The position numbers were made by a program, and so were the translations under genes. A DNA stretch of 40,884 bases from Myxococcales bacterium (GTDB lineage: Bacteria; Myxococcota_A; Polyangia; Polyangiales; Houyiibacteriaceae), in assembly GCA_029862185.1 (NCBI GenBank), contig JAOTXX010000037.1, forward strand, positions 1 through 40,884. Direction: 5' to 3'. Each line of letters begins with the position of its first letter. Position 1 is the first letter of the stretch. Of this stretch, positions 13,578 through 18,892 are shown in pieces. Below the pieces are notes generated by a model. That model was not told the DNA's origin. It saw nothing but the letters and a program-made list of their open reading frames with translations, and made no database searches.

Positions 13578-13967
13578 CTACCCCATCTGCCCGAGCATCT
13601 GCTTCATCAAGCCGTGAAGCAGGTTCACCGCCTTGAGCGGGCGAATCATCACCTTGAAGTCGTCGATTTTACCGTCTTCGTTCCAATGCACCATGTCGAC
13701 ACCGTTGATGATGATCCCATCGAGCTCGGCGGTGAACTCGAGGACGGCATCGGACTCGCCGATGACTTCCCGCACGTATTCGAACTTGCTCCCACCGAGT
13801 ACCATGATGGCCGCGCTCAGGTAGAGCTTGGTGAGCGCCTTGCCCCGCTGCGGGGTGTGCACGACGGGGGAGTGAAACACGGCGTCATCGGCCAAGATGT
13901 CGTCCAGGCCGGCAGCGTTCCGGTCCTCGATGAGTTTGTGCCACGTGTCGATCGCAGGTGTGCTCAT
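13578..13967 (-). CDS. NTF2/SnoaL-like protein
   Basis: A 129-residue protein with the SnoaL/NTF2 fold pattern: opening helix (WHKLIEDRNAAGLDDILADDAVFHSP), a strand-rich middle (EYVREVIGESDAVLEFTAEL) and the typical VDMVHWNEDGKIDDFKVMIRP end. Members are small-molecule isomerases, hydrolases or non-enzymatic pocket proteins. It lies 21 bases downstream of the WS/DGAT gene and is probably the last gene of the leftward lipid operon, so a lipophilic ligand is a reasonable guess. Confidence 0.85.
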   Translation of the reverse strand: MSTPAIDTWHKLIEDRNAAGLDDILADDAVFHSPVVHTPQRGKALTKLYLSAAIMVLGGSKFEYVREVIGESDAVLEFTAELDGIIINGVDMVHWNEDGKIDDFKVMIRPLKAVNLLHGLMKQMLGQMG

Positions 13968-13988: not shown

Positions 13989-15389
13989 TCACAGGGTGGC
14001 TCGGATCAGGTCGTCGAGAGCCGGACGCATGGCGTTGGTGATGCAGTGTGGGTCAGGAATCGCGCCTGCGTCTGCAATGAGCGCGAACGCGACGTCGCCG
14101 CAGTAACTCCAGCCCGTGATGTTGAGCCCAATGCCTTCGACTGCGGGGCCGACCGAGTAGATCGTGCGAAGCCGCGCCCCCGCCACGAACAGCGGATGAT
14201 CCGGACCGCGAACGTTCGAGACGATGAGGTTCGCCGCTGGCGGCAGGACATCGGACAAGCCCGACTGAGTGAAGGCCCCGAGAGCCCAGCGGTAGGCGAC
14301 AGCCGGCGCCGCCTCGGACCAATCGAGCATGGTCTCGATTCCAAGCTGCCGCTGCACTTCTTTGGACTGCTTCGTGACCGCATGGATCTTGTGCAGGCGT
14401 TCGAGCGGGTCGCGGACATCGTTGCACAGAGACGTGAATAGATTGGCCACGCGATTCCCCGCTTCGCGCGGCGCTTCCTCCGGCGATGCGATGGCTATTG
14501 GCACACTTGCGATCAGTGGCTTTGATAGCGTCTCACCGCGGGATTCGAAGAAACGATCGAGCGCCCCCGCGACCGTGGCGAGAACAACGTCGTTGAGCGT
14601 CACCTGGGCGGCGTTCTTGACGGCTTTGAGCTCGGCGACGGGCAGCGAAGTCGTCGCAAATGAGCGTTGGGGCGAAAGCGAGCGATTGAACACGGTGCGC
14701 GGCGTCACGAAAGGGTACGGCACATCGATCGCACGGTGCTTGAGGTTCTTGAGGACGCTCAGACTGCCTTTGACCGTCCTCTGCATGAGTGGGCCGATCA
14801 TGCCGAGCTGCACGCGTTGGTCCCGGATAGCGTCGACCAGGAGCTTGCGACGGGAGGGAATGGCCTCGGGAACCCAGGCAGGATTGGGTGCGTTGAGGTC
14901 GTTCTGATCCGGTTCGAGCGTCATCACCTTGGCCAGCATGTTGGCCGAGGCGACCCCGTCCGCCAGGCTGTGGTGGATCTTGGTCACCAACACGACGCCG
15001 CCGTCGGCCAAGCCCTCGAGCAACCAGGTCTCCCAAAGCGGACGGTCGCGCGGAAGCTGAATGCTGGCGATCTCTGCGATCGCCTGGTCCATCTCGCGCT
15101 GCCCGCCGGGCGATGCGATCTTCGATCGATAGAGATGACGGCCAATGTTGAAGTGCGGGTCCTTCACCCAGAGCGGATGGTGCAACCCGCCCGGGACCTC
15201 GACCGGGCGCAGGCGAAGGCGCGGCACCAGGTGCAGCTTGCTCTCCATCGACACGCGCACGAGGTCGAACACATCGGCGTAGGGAATCTGCGCCGGCAAA
15301 TCGATGACCGCGACCTTGAGCGTGTGCATGTGCACGCTCGGGGTCTCCATGTAGAGAAACGAAGCGTCTTGCCCGGAAAAACGCTCCAT
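13989..15389 (-). CDS. WS/DGAT-type wax ester/triacylglycerol synthase
   Basis: A 466-residue acyltransferase of the wax ester synthase/diacylglycerol acyltransferase family, which joins acyl-CoA to fatty alcohols or diacylglycerol to make storage lipids at the membrane face. It starts with the family opening RFSGQDASFLYMETP, has PLWE (117-120), the catalytic motif HHSLADG (139-145) and later the second-domain signatures NDVVLATVAGAL and the NVRGPD segment. The ATG at 15389 is preceded by GAGG at about six bases. Only seven bases separate it from the stop of the hydrolase gene upstream, so they are an operon. Length and motifs are those of functional enzymes. Confidence 0.93.
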   Translation of the reverse strand: MERFSGQDASFLYMETPSVHMHTLKVAVIDLPAQIPYADVFDLVRVSMESKLHLVPRLRLRPVEVPGGLHHPLWVKDPHFNIGRHLYRSKIASPGGQREMDQAIAEIASIQLPRDRPLWETWLLEGLADGGVVLVTKIHHSLADGVASANMLAKVMTLEPDQNDLNAPNPAWVPEAIPSRRKLLVDAIRDQRVQLGMIGPLMQRTVKGSLSVLKNLKHRAIDVPYPFVTPRTVFNRSLSPQRSFATTSLPVAELKAVKNAAQVTLNDVVLATVAGALDRFFESRGETLSKPLIASVPIAIASPEEAPREAGNRVANLFTSLCNDVRDPLERLHKIHAVTKQSKEVQRQLGIETMLDWSEAAPAVAYRWALGAFTQSGLSDVLPPAANLIVSNVRGPDHPLFVAGARLRTIYSVGPAVEGIGLNITGWSYCGDVAFALIADAGAIPDPHCITNAMRPALDDLIRATL

Positions 15390-15396
15390 GCTCGCC

Positions 15397-16611
15397 TCAG
15401 TGATCCAAGACGGCGAAGCCGGACTTGTGAAGCCGATGGTCGACGAAGGGCGCCACTTCCGACGACCAGAAAAAGCTCACGTGCCCGCCCGCGAACCAGC
15501 GGATGCCCGGCTGGCCCCAGTGCTCCCACAGGCGCTCGGCCTGCTCGGGTGTCGAAACCTTGTCGTCGCTGCCCGCAAAGATGAAACGATTCTCGAGCGT
15601 CGTTTGCGGCAAAACCGACAAAGGTGAAACGAGCTCGAAGAGCTCGCGGGTCTGCACGCCGAGCACCCCGTTGTCTTCGGCTTCTTGACGTTGGTCGACC
15701 GGCGCATGATGCACGAACAAGTCCGGGATGTCGCAGACGGGAATGCCGGCAATCACCGTGTCGACGTTGTCGAGGCCGGCGAGCAAGGCCGAGACGTAAG
15801 ACCCCATCGACAACCCGTAGAGACCGATCTTCGTGGCGCCTTGCGCCCGCGCCCATTGAATCAAGCGGCGCGTGTCCCAGACGGCCTGGGACACGCCGTG
15901 AAACGCGTCGAGAAGATCAAACGACAGAAGCGAGGCGATCGGCAACGCGGCGGGCTTTCGCGGGCCGTGCAGCGGTAGCACGGGCATCACGAGGTTGAGG
16001 CCGAGCTCGTGGTGCAGCTTCTCGGCGCGGAAGCCAGCGAAATCCGCGTAGGGCCCGCCGGTCCCGAGGCCGTGTAGGCAGATCAGCCAAGGCCGCTCCG
16101 GGCCGCTGTGGCGAGCAACCCATGCGTGGGCGACGTGATTGCGGTCGTAGTTGTTCCAGCGGTCGGCCGCCGGGTCCTCCGAAGGCGCCTGGTAGCCGCT
16201 TTCAAACGAAAGCCATTCGAAGCGCATCGAAGGGTGCCAGGCCGGCTCGATGGAAATCTCATCGATGGCCGGTGGGGTCGCATGAAACGCGCTCGGCGCC
16301 ACAGGCCGGCCAGCGCGGTACAAGCGGTGCGCGGCGGTGATCTCTTCGCCGACGCGCGCCAGGTCGCCTGCGTCGGGGTAGCGGTGCGGCCGGCTCATGC
16401 CCGCGAGGAAGAGGCGATCGATCGACCGCCCCGCGAAGCGCGCAACCCCGGTGTAGGCATTGCTGCGGGCAAGCCGGATGCTCGCACCCGCCGGCTGCCG
16501 GCCCCGGCGGGCACGCTTACGCTTGGCAGGATGCGCGGACTCGCGCGAAACCGGTGCGCGCCACGGAAACAAGCTGTTAAGCAGACTCGACCACATGCGC
16601 GCAGAACCCAT
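15397..16611 (-). CDS. alpha/beta hydrolase (lipid-module hydrolase)
   Basis: A 404-residue alpha/beta hydrolase. ATG 16611 is chosen: GGAG lies about nine bases upstream and the palindromic operator would otherwise be inside the coding region. After a basic N-terminal part rich in Arg/Ala, the hydrolase core begins with WLICLHGLGTGGPYADF (oxyanion region), followed by the nucleophile elbow GLSMGS, a likely acid in AGSDDKVSTPEQ, and the His in GGHVSFFWS. No signal peptide or lipobox. First gene of the leftward run with WS/DGAT and the NTF2-like gene. It likely cleaves an ester or acylglycerol; whether it opposes the synthase is inference. Confidence 0.85.
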   Translation of the reverse strand: MGSARMWSSLLNSLFPWRAPVSRESAHPAKRKRARRGRQPAGASIRLARSNAYTGVARFAGRSIDRLFLAGMSRPHRYPDAGDLARVGEEITAAHRLYRAGRPVAPSAFHATPPAIDEISIEPAWHPSMRFEWLSFESGYQAPSEDPAADRWNNYDRNHVAHAWVARHSGPERPWLICLHGLGTGGPYADFAGFRAEKLHHELGLNLVMPVLPLHGPRKPAALPIASLLSFDLLDAFHGVSQAVWDTRRLIQWARAQGATKIGLYGLSMGSYVSALLAGLDNVDTVIAGIPVCDIPDLFVHHAPVDQRQEAEDNGVLGVQTRELFELVSPLSVLPQTTLENRFIFAGSDDKVSTPEQAERLWEHWGQPGIRWFAGGHVSFFWSSEVAPFVDHRLHKSGFAVLDH

Positions 16612-16629
16612 CCATTTCTCCAGTCGATC

Positions 16630-16653
16630 GAAAATAGAACATGTACTATTTTC
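16630..16653. promoter_or_regulatory. 24-bp near-perfect palindrome in divergent lipid promoter
   Basis: GAAAATAG and CTATTTTC are perfect 8-bp arms around AACATGTA, itself palindromic but for one A-A pair, so 11 of 12 base pairs match. It sits in the middle of the 52 bases between the hydrolase start (16611) and the acyltransferase start (16664) and would cover both promoters. The core TAGAACATGTACTA differs by one base from the TnnAACnnGTTnnA type bound by KstR-like TetR repressors of lipid catabolism. Operator role is inference; no TetR gene lies in the window. Confidence 0.6.
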
Positions 16654-16663
16654 GAGCAAGCCG

Positions 16664-17599
16664 ATGCCCGACGAACCAAACAACCCGGAGCAGAAACTGC
16701 CACCGCGTGTAGTGAAGATTCTTCAGCGCTTCATGGAGCGCGGCTTCTGGAGCAAATGGGCCGCAGCGACCGAAACCCAGCTGCAGGTGCCCGCGCAGCA
16801 ATTCGATCCCGAGTTCATGCGCAAGCTCGTGCCGAAGATGGAAACGTTCACGAGCTACTTCGGCGCCGAAGTTCGTGGCATGGATCGGGTGCCGCAAAGC
16901 CCGGTCCTTTTGATCGGCAACCACTCGGGCGGCATCATCACCCCCGACACGAGCGCGGTCTATGCGGCCTGGTACCGGACGCGCGGTTTCGAAGACCCTC
17001 TGATGGGTCTGGCGTTCGACGGCATCTACGCGGTGCCAGGTTGGCGAGAGCTGATGCGAAAGATCGGGCAGATGCCGGCGAGCATGGACAACGCGCAGGC
17101 CGCCCTCAGCACTGGATGCTCGGTTCTCCTCTATCCGGGTGGCACCTACGAGGTGTTCCGGCCGTGGAAGGACCGCAACCGCATCACATTCAAGGGTCGC
17201 AAAGGCTTCGTGCGACTGGCCCTCCAAGCCGGTGTTCCCGTCGTGCCGGTCGTCGGCCATGGCGGACACGAAACGACCATCGTCCTTACACGCGGGGAGC
17301 GCTTGGCGAAGCTCCTGAGCTTGGACAAGGTACGGATGGACGGGGCGCCGCTGCTGTTTCAGGTGCCCTGGGGGATTTCGAGCCCGGCGCTTCCGGGCAT
17401 GCCCCTTCCGGCAAAGATCACTGTCCAAGTCTGCGAGCCGCTCGACTGGAGGCGCTTCGGTCCCGAAGGCGCCGATGATCCAGAAGTGCTCGATGGCTGT
17501 TACGAAGAGATCACGTCGATCATGCAGGCCACCCTCGACCGGCTCGCTATCGAGAATCCGAAACCCCTCCTCAGCCGTTTCGTTCGGCGGAGAGCGTAG
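16664..17599 (+). CDS. lysophospholipid/glycerolipid acyltransferase (PlsC-like)
   Basis: A 311-residue acyltransferase. ATG 16664 gives MPDEPNN and leaves the operator outside the gene; the Shine-Dalgarno is weak. Motif I appears as LIGNHSGGIITPDTSAVYA around residue 85, where the Asp is seven residues after the His, not the four of classical PlsC enzymes. Motif III is the YPGGTYEVFRPW region, and the motif IV-like QAGVPVVPVVGHGG follows. These enzymes move an acyl group onto lysophosphatidate or related acceptors. No membrane helix is obvious. The esterase gene begins 13 bases downstream in the same direction. Confidence 0.85.
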   Translation: MPDEPNNPEQKLPPRVVKILQRFMERGFWSKWAAATETQLQVPAQQFDPEFMRKLVPKMETFTSYFGAEVRGMDRVPQSPVLLIGNHSGGIITPDTSAVYAAWYRTRGFEDPLMGLAFDGIYAVPGWRELMRKIGQMPASMDNAQAALSTGCSVLLYPGGTYEVFRPWKDRNRITFKGRKGFVRLALQAGVPVVPVVGHGGHETTIVLTRGERLAKLLSLDKVRMDGAPLLFQVPWGISSPALPGMPLPAKITVQVCEPLDWRRFGPEGADDPEVLDGCYEEITSIMQATLDRLAIENPKPLLSRFVRRRA

Positions 17600-17611: not shown

Positions 17612-18892
17612 ATGCTCCTCGGCGTACCGACGATCGCTTGGGCCTTCTTGGCGGTCAGTCTGGTCGGTGCGTTGTTCACGGCAAACGCGTTCGTCCCGGT
17701 GCGCCGCGTTCCCGCCCTCTTCATGCCGAGCTTCTTTGGCTCCTGGTTGACTGCCGAGCTCGCGATGCATCACGTCTTGTGGCAAGCGATCGCCTCTCTG
17801 CTGTTCGTCGAGCTCGGTGCGCTAGCCGCCTGGCCAGGCTGGCTCGCGCTGATCATCACGTTCGGTTCTTGGCTCGGCCTCCTGGTTCTCTTCGCGGACG
17901 GCAACCGGGCAAGAAAGACCTTCGACGCCGCCCTCGCAGGCGTGGAGCCGGTGCGCGAAACCAAGCCCGTGCCACGCCGAAACATCGTCCTGCCGTTCTC
18001 GAAGAAGCGACGCGGCATCCGGGTCACGCGCGACATCGTCTACCGGCGCGTGGCTGGCATGGTCTTGAAGCTCGATGTGGTGGCGCCCGCCGACGACGGC
18101 GCTCACCGACCCGCGATCCTGCAAATCCACGGCGGCTCTTGGGTGATGGGCGACAAGCGAGAACAGGGTTGGCCGCTCTTGTCTCACCTCGCGGCCAACG
18201 GCTGGGTCTGTTTCAATCTCAACTACCGCCTGAGCCCGGGCGCGACGTTCCCCGAACATCTGATCGACCTCAAGGCAGGCCTGGCCTGGATTCGCGAGCA
18301 CGCCGAGCAATGGGGGATCGACCCCGATTTCATCGCAGTGACCGGCGGCTCTGCCGGCGGTCACCTCGCAGCCCTCATGGGATTGACGGCCAACGACCCC
18401 GAGTACCAACCGGGCTTCGAAGAGGCCGACACCCGCGTGCAAGCCGCCGTGCCGATCTACGGCGTGTACGACTTCACGAGCCGGCTCGGCACGAACCGAC
18501 TCCCGTTCTGGTATCGGCGGCTCGAACGGCAGATCATGAAAGCGTTCCGGGATGAAGAGCCCGAAAAGTTCCGTCGAGCCTCGCCGATCGAACGCATCCA
18601 CCCGGACGCGCCGCCCTTCTTCGTGATTCACGGAGACCGCGACACCCTCGCGCCGGTCGAAGAGGCCCGCCAGTTCGCTGATGCGCTCCGCGAGGTTTCG
18701 AAATCGCCTGTCGTGTACGCCGAGCTGGGCGGCGCGCAGCACGCGTTCGACATCTTCTGCTCCCCTCGGACCGCACACATGCTCGCTGCCGTCTTGAAGT
18801 TCCTCGACGCCACCCACGCGGTCACGCGCGCCGAATCGACGAAGCCGTCACTCGATGACGGAGTTGCGTACCTGGGGGTCGCCGTTCGCTAG
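17612..18892 (+). CDS. membrane-anchored HSL/BD-FAE-type esterase
   Basis: A 426-residue alpha/beta hydrolase with three or four N-terminal hydrophobic segments (about residues 5-25, 38-55, 57-73, 78-95) followed by a hormone-sensitive-lipase-like domain. Oxyanion motif ILQIHGGSW near residue 170, nucleophile elbow GGSAGGH near residue 250, acid in HGDRDTLAP near 340 and His in AQHAFD near 375. Similar layouts are seen among the mycobacterial Lip enzymes. The last 15 codons (about 18848-18892) run antisense into the remains of the beta-helix pseudogene, so the C-terminal tail is probably not ancestral. It follows the acyltransferase by 12 bases and is likely its operon partner. Confidence 0.87.
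   Translation: MLLGVPTIAWAFLAVSLVGALFTANAFVPVRRVPALFMPSFFGSWLTAELAMHHVLWQAIASLLFVELGALAAWPGWLALIITFGSWLGLLVLFADGNRARKTFDAALAGVEPVRETKPVPRRNIVLPFSKKRRGIRVTRDIVYRRVAGMVLKLDVVAPADDGAHRPAILQIHGGSWVMGDKREQGWPLLSHLAANGWVCFNLNYRLSPGATFPEHLIDLKAGLAWIREHAEQWGIDPDFIAVTGGSAGGHLAALMGLTANDPEYQPGFEEADTRVQAAVPIYGVYDFTSRLGTNRLPFWYRRLERQIMKAFRDEEPEKFRRASPIERIHPDAPPFFVIHGDRDTLAPVEEARQFADALREVSKSPVVYAELGGAQHAFDIFCSPRTAHMLAAVLKFLDATHAVTRAESTKPSLDDGVAYLGVAVR

Follow-up and report, generated by a model that had tools for sequence, protein, structure and literature searches.

Sequence comparisons make it very probable that a 24-bp palindrome between two divergently transcribed lipid operons of an uncultured Myxococcales bacterium is bound by a KstR-like, cholesterol-sensing repressor. 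We consider it likely that the palindrome serves as a KstR-type operator of a steroid-catabolism regulon, and that it would keep both lipid operons repressed until a sterol-derived CoA ester appears. The operator type, the regulator family and the targets are already known from Actinobacteria; the new aspect is a storage-lipid cluster, an unusual target, in a KstR-type regulon of Myxococcota, which we did not find in the literature searched. The palindrome lies in a 40,884-nucleotide stretch (‘the window’) from a genus that is known here from metagenome-assembled genomes, and the features of the locus are as follows.

13578..13967, minus strand: left operon, possible gene 3, which may end the operon: SnoaL-like protein (PF12680, 2.2e-8; gene call)
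13989..15389, minus strand: left operon, gene 2: WS/DGAT wax ester synthase / acyl-CoA:diacylglycerol acyltransferase (PF03007, 3.5e-67; TIGR02946, 426.5 bits, above cut-off)
15397..16611, minus strand: left operon, gene 1: alpha/beta hydrolase (ABHD18-like) (Pfam PF09752, 3.5e-9; kept beside the site in seven genomes)
16612..16663, no strand: 52-bp divergent intergenic region, delimited by the gene boundaries
16630..16653, no strand: 24-bp palindrome GAAAATAGAACATGTACTATTTTC, with 11 of the 12 pairs matched and no mismatch in the 8-bp arms
16635..16648, plus strand: putative operator core of 14 bp, TAGAACATGTACTA, which differs at one base from TAGAAC(N2)GTTCTA (KstR motif)
16664..17599, plus strand: right operon, gene 1: DAGAT/PlsC-like acyltransferase (PF03982, 1.3e-12; PF01553, 5.5e-12)
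17612..18892, plus strand: right operon, gene 2: LipQ-like esterase (PF20434, 1e-47; NCBIfam EstLipQMycob, 290.7 bits, below the cut-off of 700)

The initial annotation of this DNA had described the palindrome, with its arms, pairing and place in the 52-bp gap, as the only symmetric AT-rich element of its kind, and both descriptions are accurate. The gap is bounded by a minus-strand start at 16611 and a plus-strand ATG at 16664, and GAAAATAGAACATGTACTATTTTC, 75% AT where the window is about 63% GC, is the sole 24-mer of the window in which 11 or more of the 12 pairs match. Its one mispair is A/A (A16638 versus A16645), and together with its flanks it reads TCGAAAATAGAACATGTACTATTTTCGA, with 13 of 14 pairs. 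Since a first-order Markov model fitted to the window predicts 0.42 24-mers of such symmetry per window, the symmetry of GAAAATAGAACATGTACTATTTTC alone is not significant; its position and conservation are. The 14-bp core is placed close to both presumed regulated starts, 15 bp from the right and 23 bp from the left start codon, and a scan of the gap recognised no sigma-70-like promoter. The acyltransferase ATG is missing at the same place in two other genomes (G011 and G008; L005 and L008), which makes the start codon of this gene uncertain. The expected number of 0.42 would suit a palindrome that arose by chance in a short, AT-rich promoter and was kept solely through overlap with two core promoters, and the position of the element does force overlap with both promoters. 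We regard such an origin as very unlikely: the core fits a 14-bp motif that was identified at steroid genes independently, and exactly that core plus one arm is held by the 18 invariant columns described below.

To follow the element through evolution, we compared seven promoters, from the window genome and six other genomes of the same genus that carry the cluster. The six have acyltransferase orthologues (75–85%) and the hydrolase across the gap, with WS/DGAT and the esterase next wherever the contig or the fetched stretch extends; five of these loci come from records named Myxococcales bacterium, Deltaproteobacteria bacterium or uncultured bacterium. All seven promoters share an identical TAGAACATGTACTATTTT, that is, 18 consecutive invariant columns comprising the 14-bp core and one arm, while the next longest invariant run is five. 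The outer pair is altered on both sides in G004 (CC...GG, G-C to C-G), and G008 has lost the left arm while retaining the core. It follows from this comparison that the core and the right arm, rather than the full 24-mer, are under selection. Neither of the two outcomes that were to refute the initial reading was observed: the element is kept in seven of seven orthologous divergent promoters, and matches to its core precede steroid and lipid genes far above chance. The 24-mer itself, in the suggested genome scan, matches itself alone (up to three mismatches allowed). Given that the 24-mer is unique and its left arm lost in G008, we take the recognised unit to be the 14-bp core TAGAAC-N2-GTTCTA and not the 24-bp palindrome.

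The same comparison bears on the idea that the palindrome works at the RNA level, as a hairpin close to the start codon in one or the other transcript. While the element is self-complementary on both strands and the exchange of its outer pair in G004 would suit a stem, the would-be loop ACATGT is conserved as strongly as the arms, the same core occurs at other promoters with different arms, and G008 keeps the core without the left arm. On these grounds we rejected the hairpin, to which we give next to no weight.

The initial annotation had likened the palindrome to the sites of KstR-type repressors, and the likeness holds for the core, which is one base off TAGAACRYGTTCTA: the left half is exact, and the right half departs, with GTA instead of GTT. 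In M. tuberculosis the kstR promoter has the motif TAGAAC(N2)GTTCTA and the KstR regulon the consensus TnnAACnnGTTnnA (PMC1995591). This consensus has AAC and GTT in both half-sites, from which the window site differs by one base; because of this departure we call it KstR-type and not an exact KstR consensus site. A genus-wide search with the core, allowing up to three mismatches, yielded 2–7 sites per genome as compared to 0–1 in the reversed control, and their consensus, TAGAACATGTTCTA, equals the M. tuberculosis kstR-promoter motif. The genome has 18 matches to the strict pattern TRRAACRYGTTYYA, where base composition predicts 0.27 and the reversed control has 0; in every genome of the genus there are 10–20. 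All 18 strict sites are located at gene starts, 16 of them intergenic and two overlapping the called start, with gene positions taken from a simple gene caller made for this analysis. Nine places, the window site included, are within one mismatch of TAGAACRYGTTCTA (0.7 expected), and eight of the nine are positioned as promoter elements. Discrimination is confined to the strict pattern or a tolerance of one mismatch: with up to two mismatches the count is 40 versus 41 in the control. A further palindrome, AAATAGGACATGTCCTGCTT at C107:39660, with a similar form in several species, was dropped as it lies inside a called gene.

The genes behind the strict sites belong mostly to steroid catabolism, with names that are to be read at family level since NCBIfam equivalog cut-offs were mostly missed. 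They encode KshA-like Rieske oxygenases, a KshB-like reductase, two FAD enzymes, one of them KstD-like, and HsaA-, HsaB- and HsaD-like proteins, an HsaC-like gene being located upstream of the HsaD-like one. The site of the HsaA-like gene is at C82:10048. Further targets are a thiolase, acyl-CoA dehydrogenases, a GMC oxidoreductase, an aldehyde dehydrogenase with an esterase, SCP2/ChsH2-like proteins with thiolases, an AMP ligase and KshA, and an ECH with a CoA transferase. A few are not obviously steroid-related: PdxJ/PaaX-like, NMO and the peptide-deformylase side of a divergent pair. The initial reading of a lipid or sterol regulator is supported in part, with the correction that the regulon is specifically one of steroid catabolism. 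One strict site (L154:3022; G000:C75:9621) precedes an ECH / CoA-transferase operon resembling mycobacterial KstR2 targets, and a single regulator may govern the two halves of steroid degradation in this organism.

Motif richness goes together with KshA across relatives. Among 57 relatives, the 23 genomes with at least 10 strict sites are exactly those with a best KshA match of 2.6e-38 or better, and the remaining 34 have 0–4 strict sites (Fisher p about 2e-16, with phylogeny ignored; 19 of the 23 belong to one genus). In a second genus, g4 (G021, G029), two WS/DGAT genes have strict sites 28–32 bp upstream (L190:2077, L195:563). The g4 proteins are only 27–32% identical to the WS/DGAT of the window, and these sites are independent support for WS/DGAT belonging to such regulons. 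We also considered lipQ as a site target in G021 and G026; it was discarded, as the nearby KstR-type sites precede the following genes. The 4.3-Mb genome G000 encodes nine WS/DGAT homologues, and that of the window is the only one, among those fetched, to adjoin a KstR-type site.

A TetR-type repressor encoded elsewhere in the genome had been postulated, and a gene for a KstR-like TetR protein is indeed present on another contig. Out of about 30 TetR-family genes, C82:6243-6821 matches KstR best: its top PDB match is Mtb KstR (5e-21), and in the reverse search of Mtb KstR against 29 TetR proteins of this genome it comes first (2e-24; next 6e-14). It is thus the reciprocal best match to M. tuberculosis KstR, at about 28% identity; its score in the NCBIfam KstR model, 122.5 bits, is far below the cut-off of 280, which weighs against the KstR reading. 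Its recognition region, VALGTVYKRFASK, is nearly identical to VAVGTLYRYFPSK of Mtb KstR. Of the 19 genomes in the genus, 14 encode the homologue at 79% identity or more, and completeness is 66–81% in the other five. The homologue takes seventh place in a run of same-strand genes, a putative operon, that starts 41 bp behind site C82:88, an arrangement in which the regulator might control its own expression. A check of the TetR genes of the genome for a site directly upstream found none, and so the KstR homologue was located by its sequence. Seven members of the family (L140–L143; G022, G028, G032) have a KstR homologue of 51–56% identity and only 0–4 strict sites, with KshA weak or absent; the recognition region is the same in the four that were read. 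These site-poor family members likewise weigh against the KstR reading, and their homologue may serve another role.

The GTA variant of the right half-site is fixed in all seven orthologous promoters, and elsewhere in the genus it has only three isolated matches. KstR sites almost always have GTT here, and the change could weaken binding or could fit another protein. Such a protein might be a different TetR factor tuned to the asymmetric TAGAAC/TAGTAC, for example the KstR-like paralogue C161:66478 (L102) or another of the about 30, in which case the lipid operons would follow a different signal. In favour of such a factor, the variant is the same in all orthologues and peculiar to this promoter, and L102 is the second-best KstR match in the genome; however, one half-site and the spacing are the same as in the strict sites, and WS/DGAT genes of another genus have fully canonical sites. 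We consider a different TetR factor rather unlikely. One could speculate that GTA was favoured for a better -10 hexamer (TACTAT over TTCTAT), which stays speculation since the promoter scan gave no convincing sigma-70 promoter.

Returning to the KstR-like repressor as the preferred regulator, we infer binding, repression, ligand and physiological purpose as follows. The KstR-like protein from the other contig (G000:C82:6243-6821) would bind the 14-bp core as a dimer and, since the core sits so close to both starts, block both promoters; simple steric repression is the most economical reading. The ligands of KstR are steroid-side-chain CoA thioesters. Degradation of sterols would generate such a thioester, which would release the repressor; this candidate inducer is taken from what is known of KstR, structures of which are the top PDB matches. 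The proposal of the initial annotation that the repressor reads an acyl-CoA and switches storage and turnover together would likewise follow from the KstR precedent. The hydrolase–WS/DGAT and acyltransferase–esterase operons would then be expressed along with the sterol pathway, possibly so that acyl chains or sterol carbon are remodelled, or stored as wax ester or triacylglycerol, or so that sterol esters are handled. More tentatively, a complete KstR-type sterol regulon might operate in Myxococcota, beyond the Actinobacteria, and have recruited lipid storage and turnover (WS/DGAT, acyltransferase, esterases), with the fixed asymmetric operator setting a repression threshold different from that of the catabolic genes.

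One switch would in this way tie neutral-lipid storage to sterol degradation, and the analysis predicts that uncultured Myxococcota degrade sterols, with a KstR-like regulator. In the searched text of two genome and metagenome surveys (PMC4810484, PMC5790920), the complete steroid-degradation pathway is assigned only to Actinobacteria and Proteobacteria, and myxobacteria are not mentioned. Our search of the open-access literature found no report of KstR in Myxococcota or myxobacteria, and no match for KstR with wax ester synthase. The regulon provides a list of candidate sterol genes for a lineage without known tested ones, as far as we could find. Set beside its mycobacterial counterpart, it also indicates which components of the KstR circuit are transferable.

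Among known systems, the gene content of the cluster is similar to M. tuberculosis Rv2482c–Rv2485c (PMC3503283), where WS/DGAT (Rv2484c), acyltransferase-like proteins and the esterase LipQ are found together; unlike here, no divergent layout around an operator is described in that source, and a search of PMC1995591 found no mention of Rv2482c–Rv2485c as a KstR target. The KstR2 regulon (Kendall 2010, PMC3068626) likewise combines a TetR repressor, a 14-bp palindrome and divergent operons, with most sites 22–82 bp from starts, similar to the distances of the window core. The KstR2 motif, however, is AnCAAGnnCTTGnT, while the KstR2-target-like ECH / CoA-transferase operon here has a KstR-type site. 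The closest parallel is the KstR regulon of M. tuberculosis and M. smegmatis (Kendall 2007, PMC1995591), with its 14-bp palindrome, many sites between divergent genes, short distances to starts, steroid-catabolism targets and a TetR repressor of the same sequence family. Unlike in mycobacteria, the host belongs to Myxococcota, its repressor is distant in sequence, the kstR homologue lies inside a gene run and does not adjoin its own site, and sites are found at the WS/DGAT–acyltransferase–esterase cluster and at the ECH / CoA-transferase genes. Both regulons have paired sites in one promoter: in M. tuberculosis in the Rv3570c/Rv3571 region, and here on contig C102 of G000, where two KstR-type sites (L073:3002 and L073:3017) lie ahead of tandem KshA-like genes.
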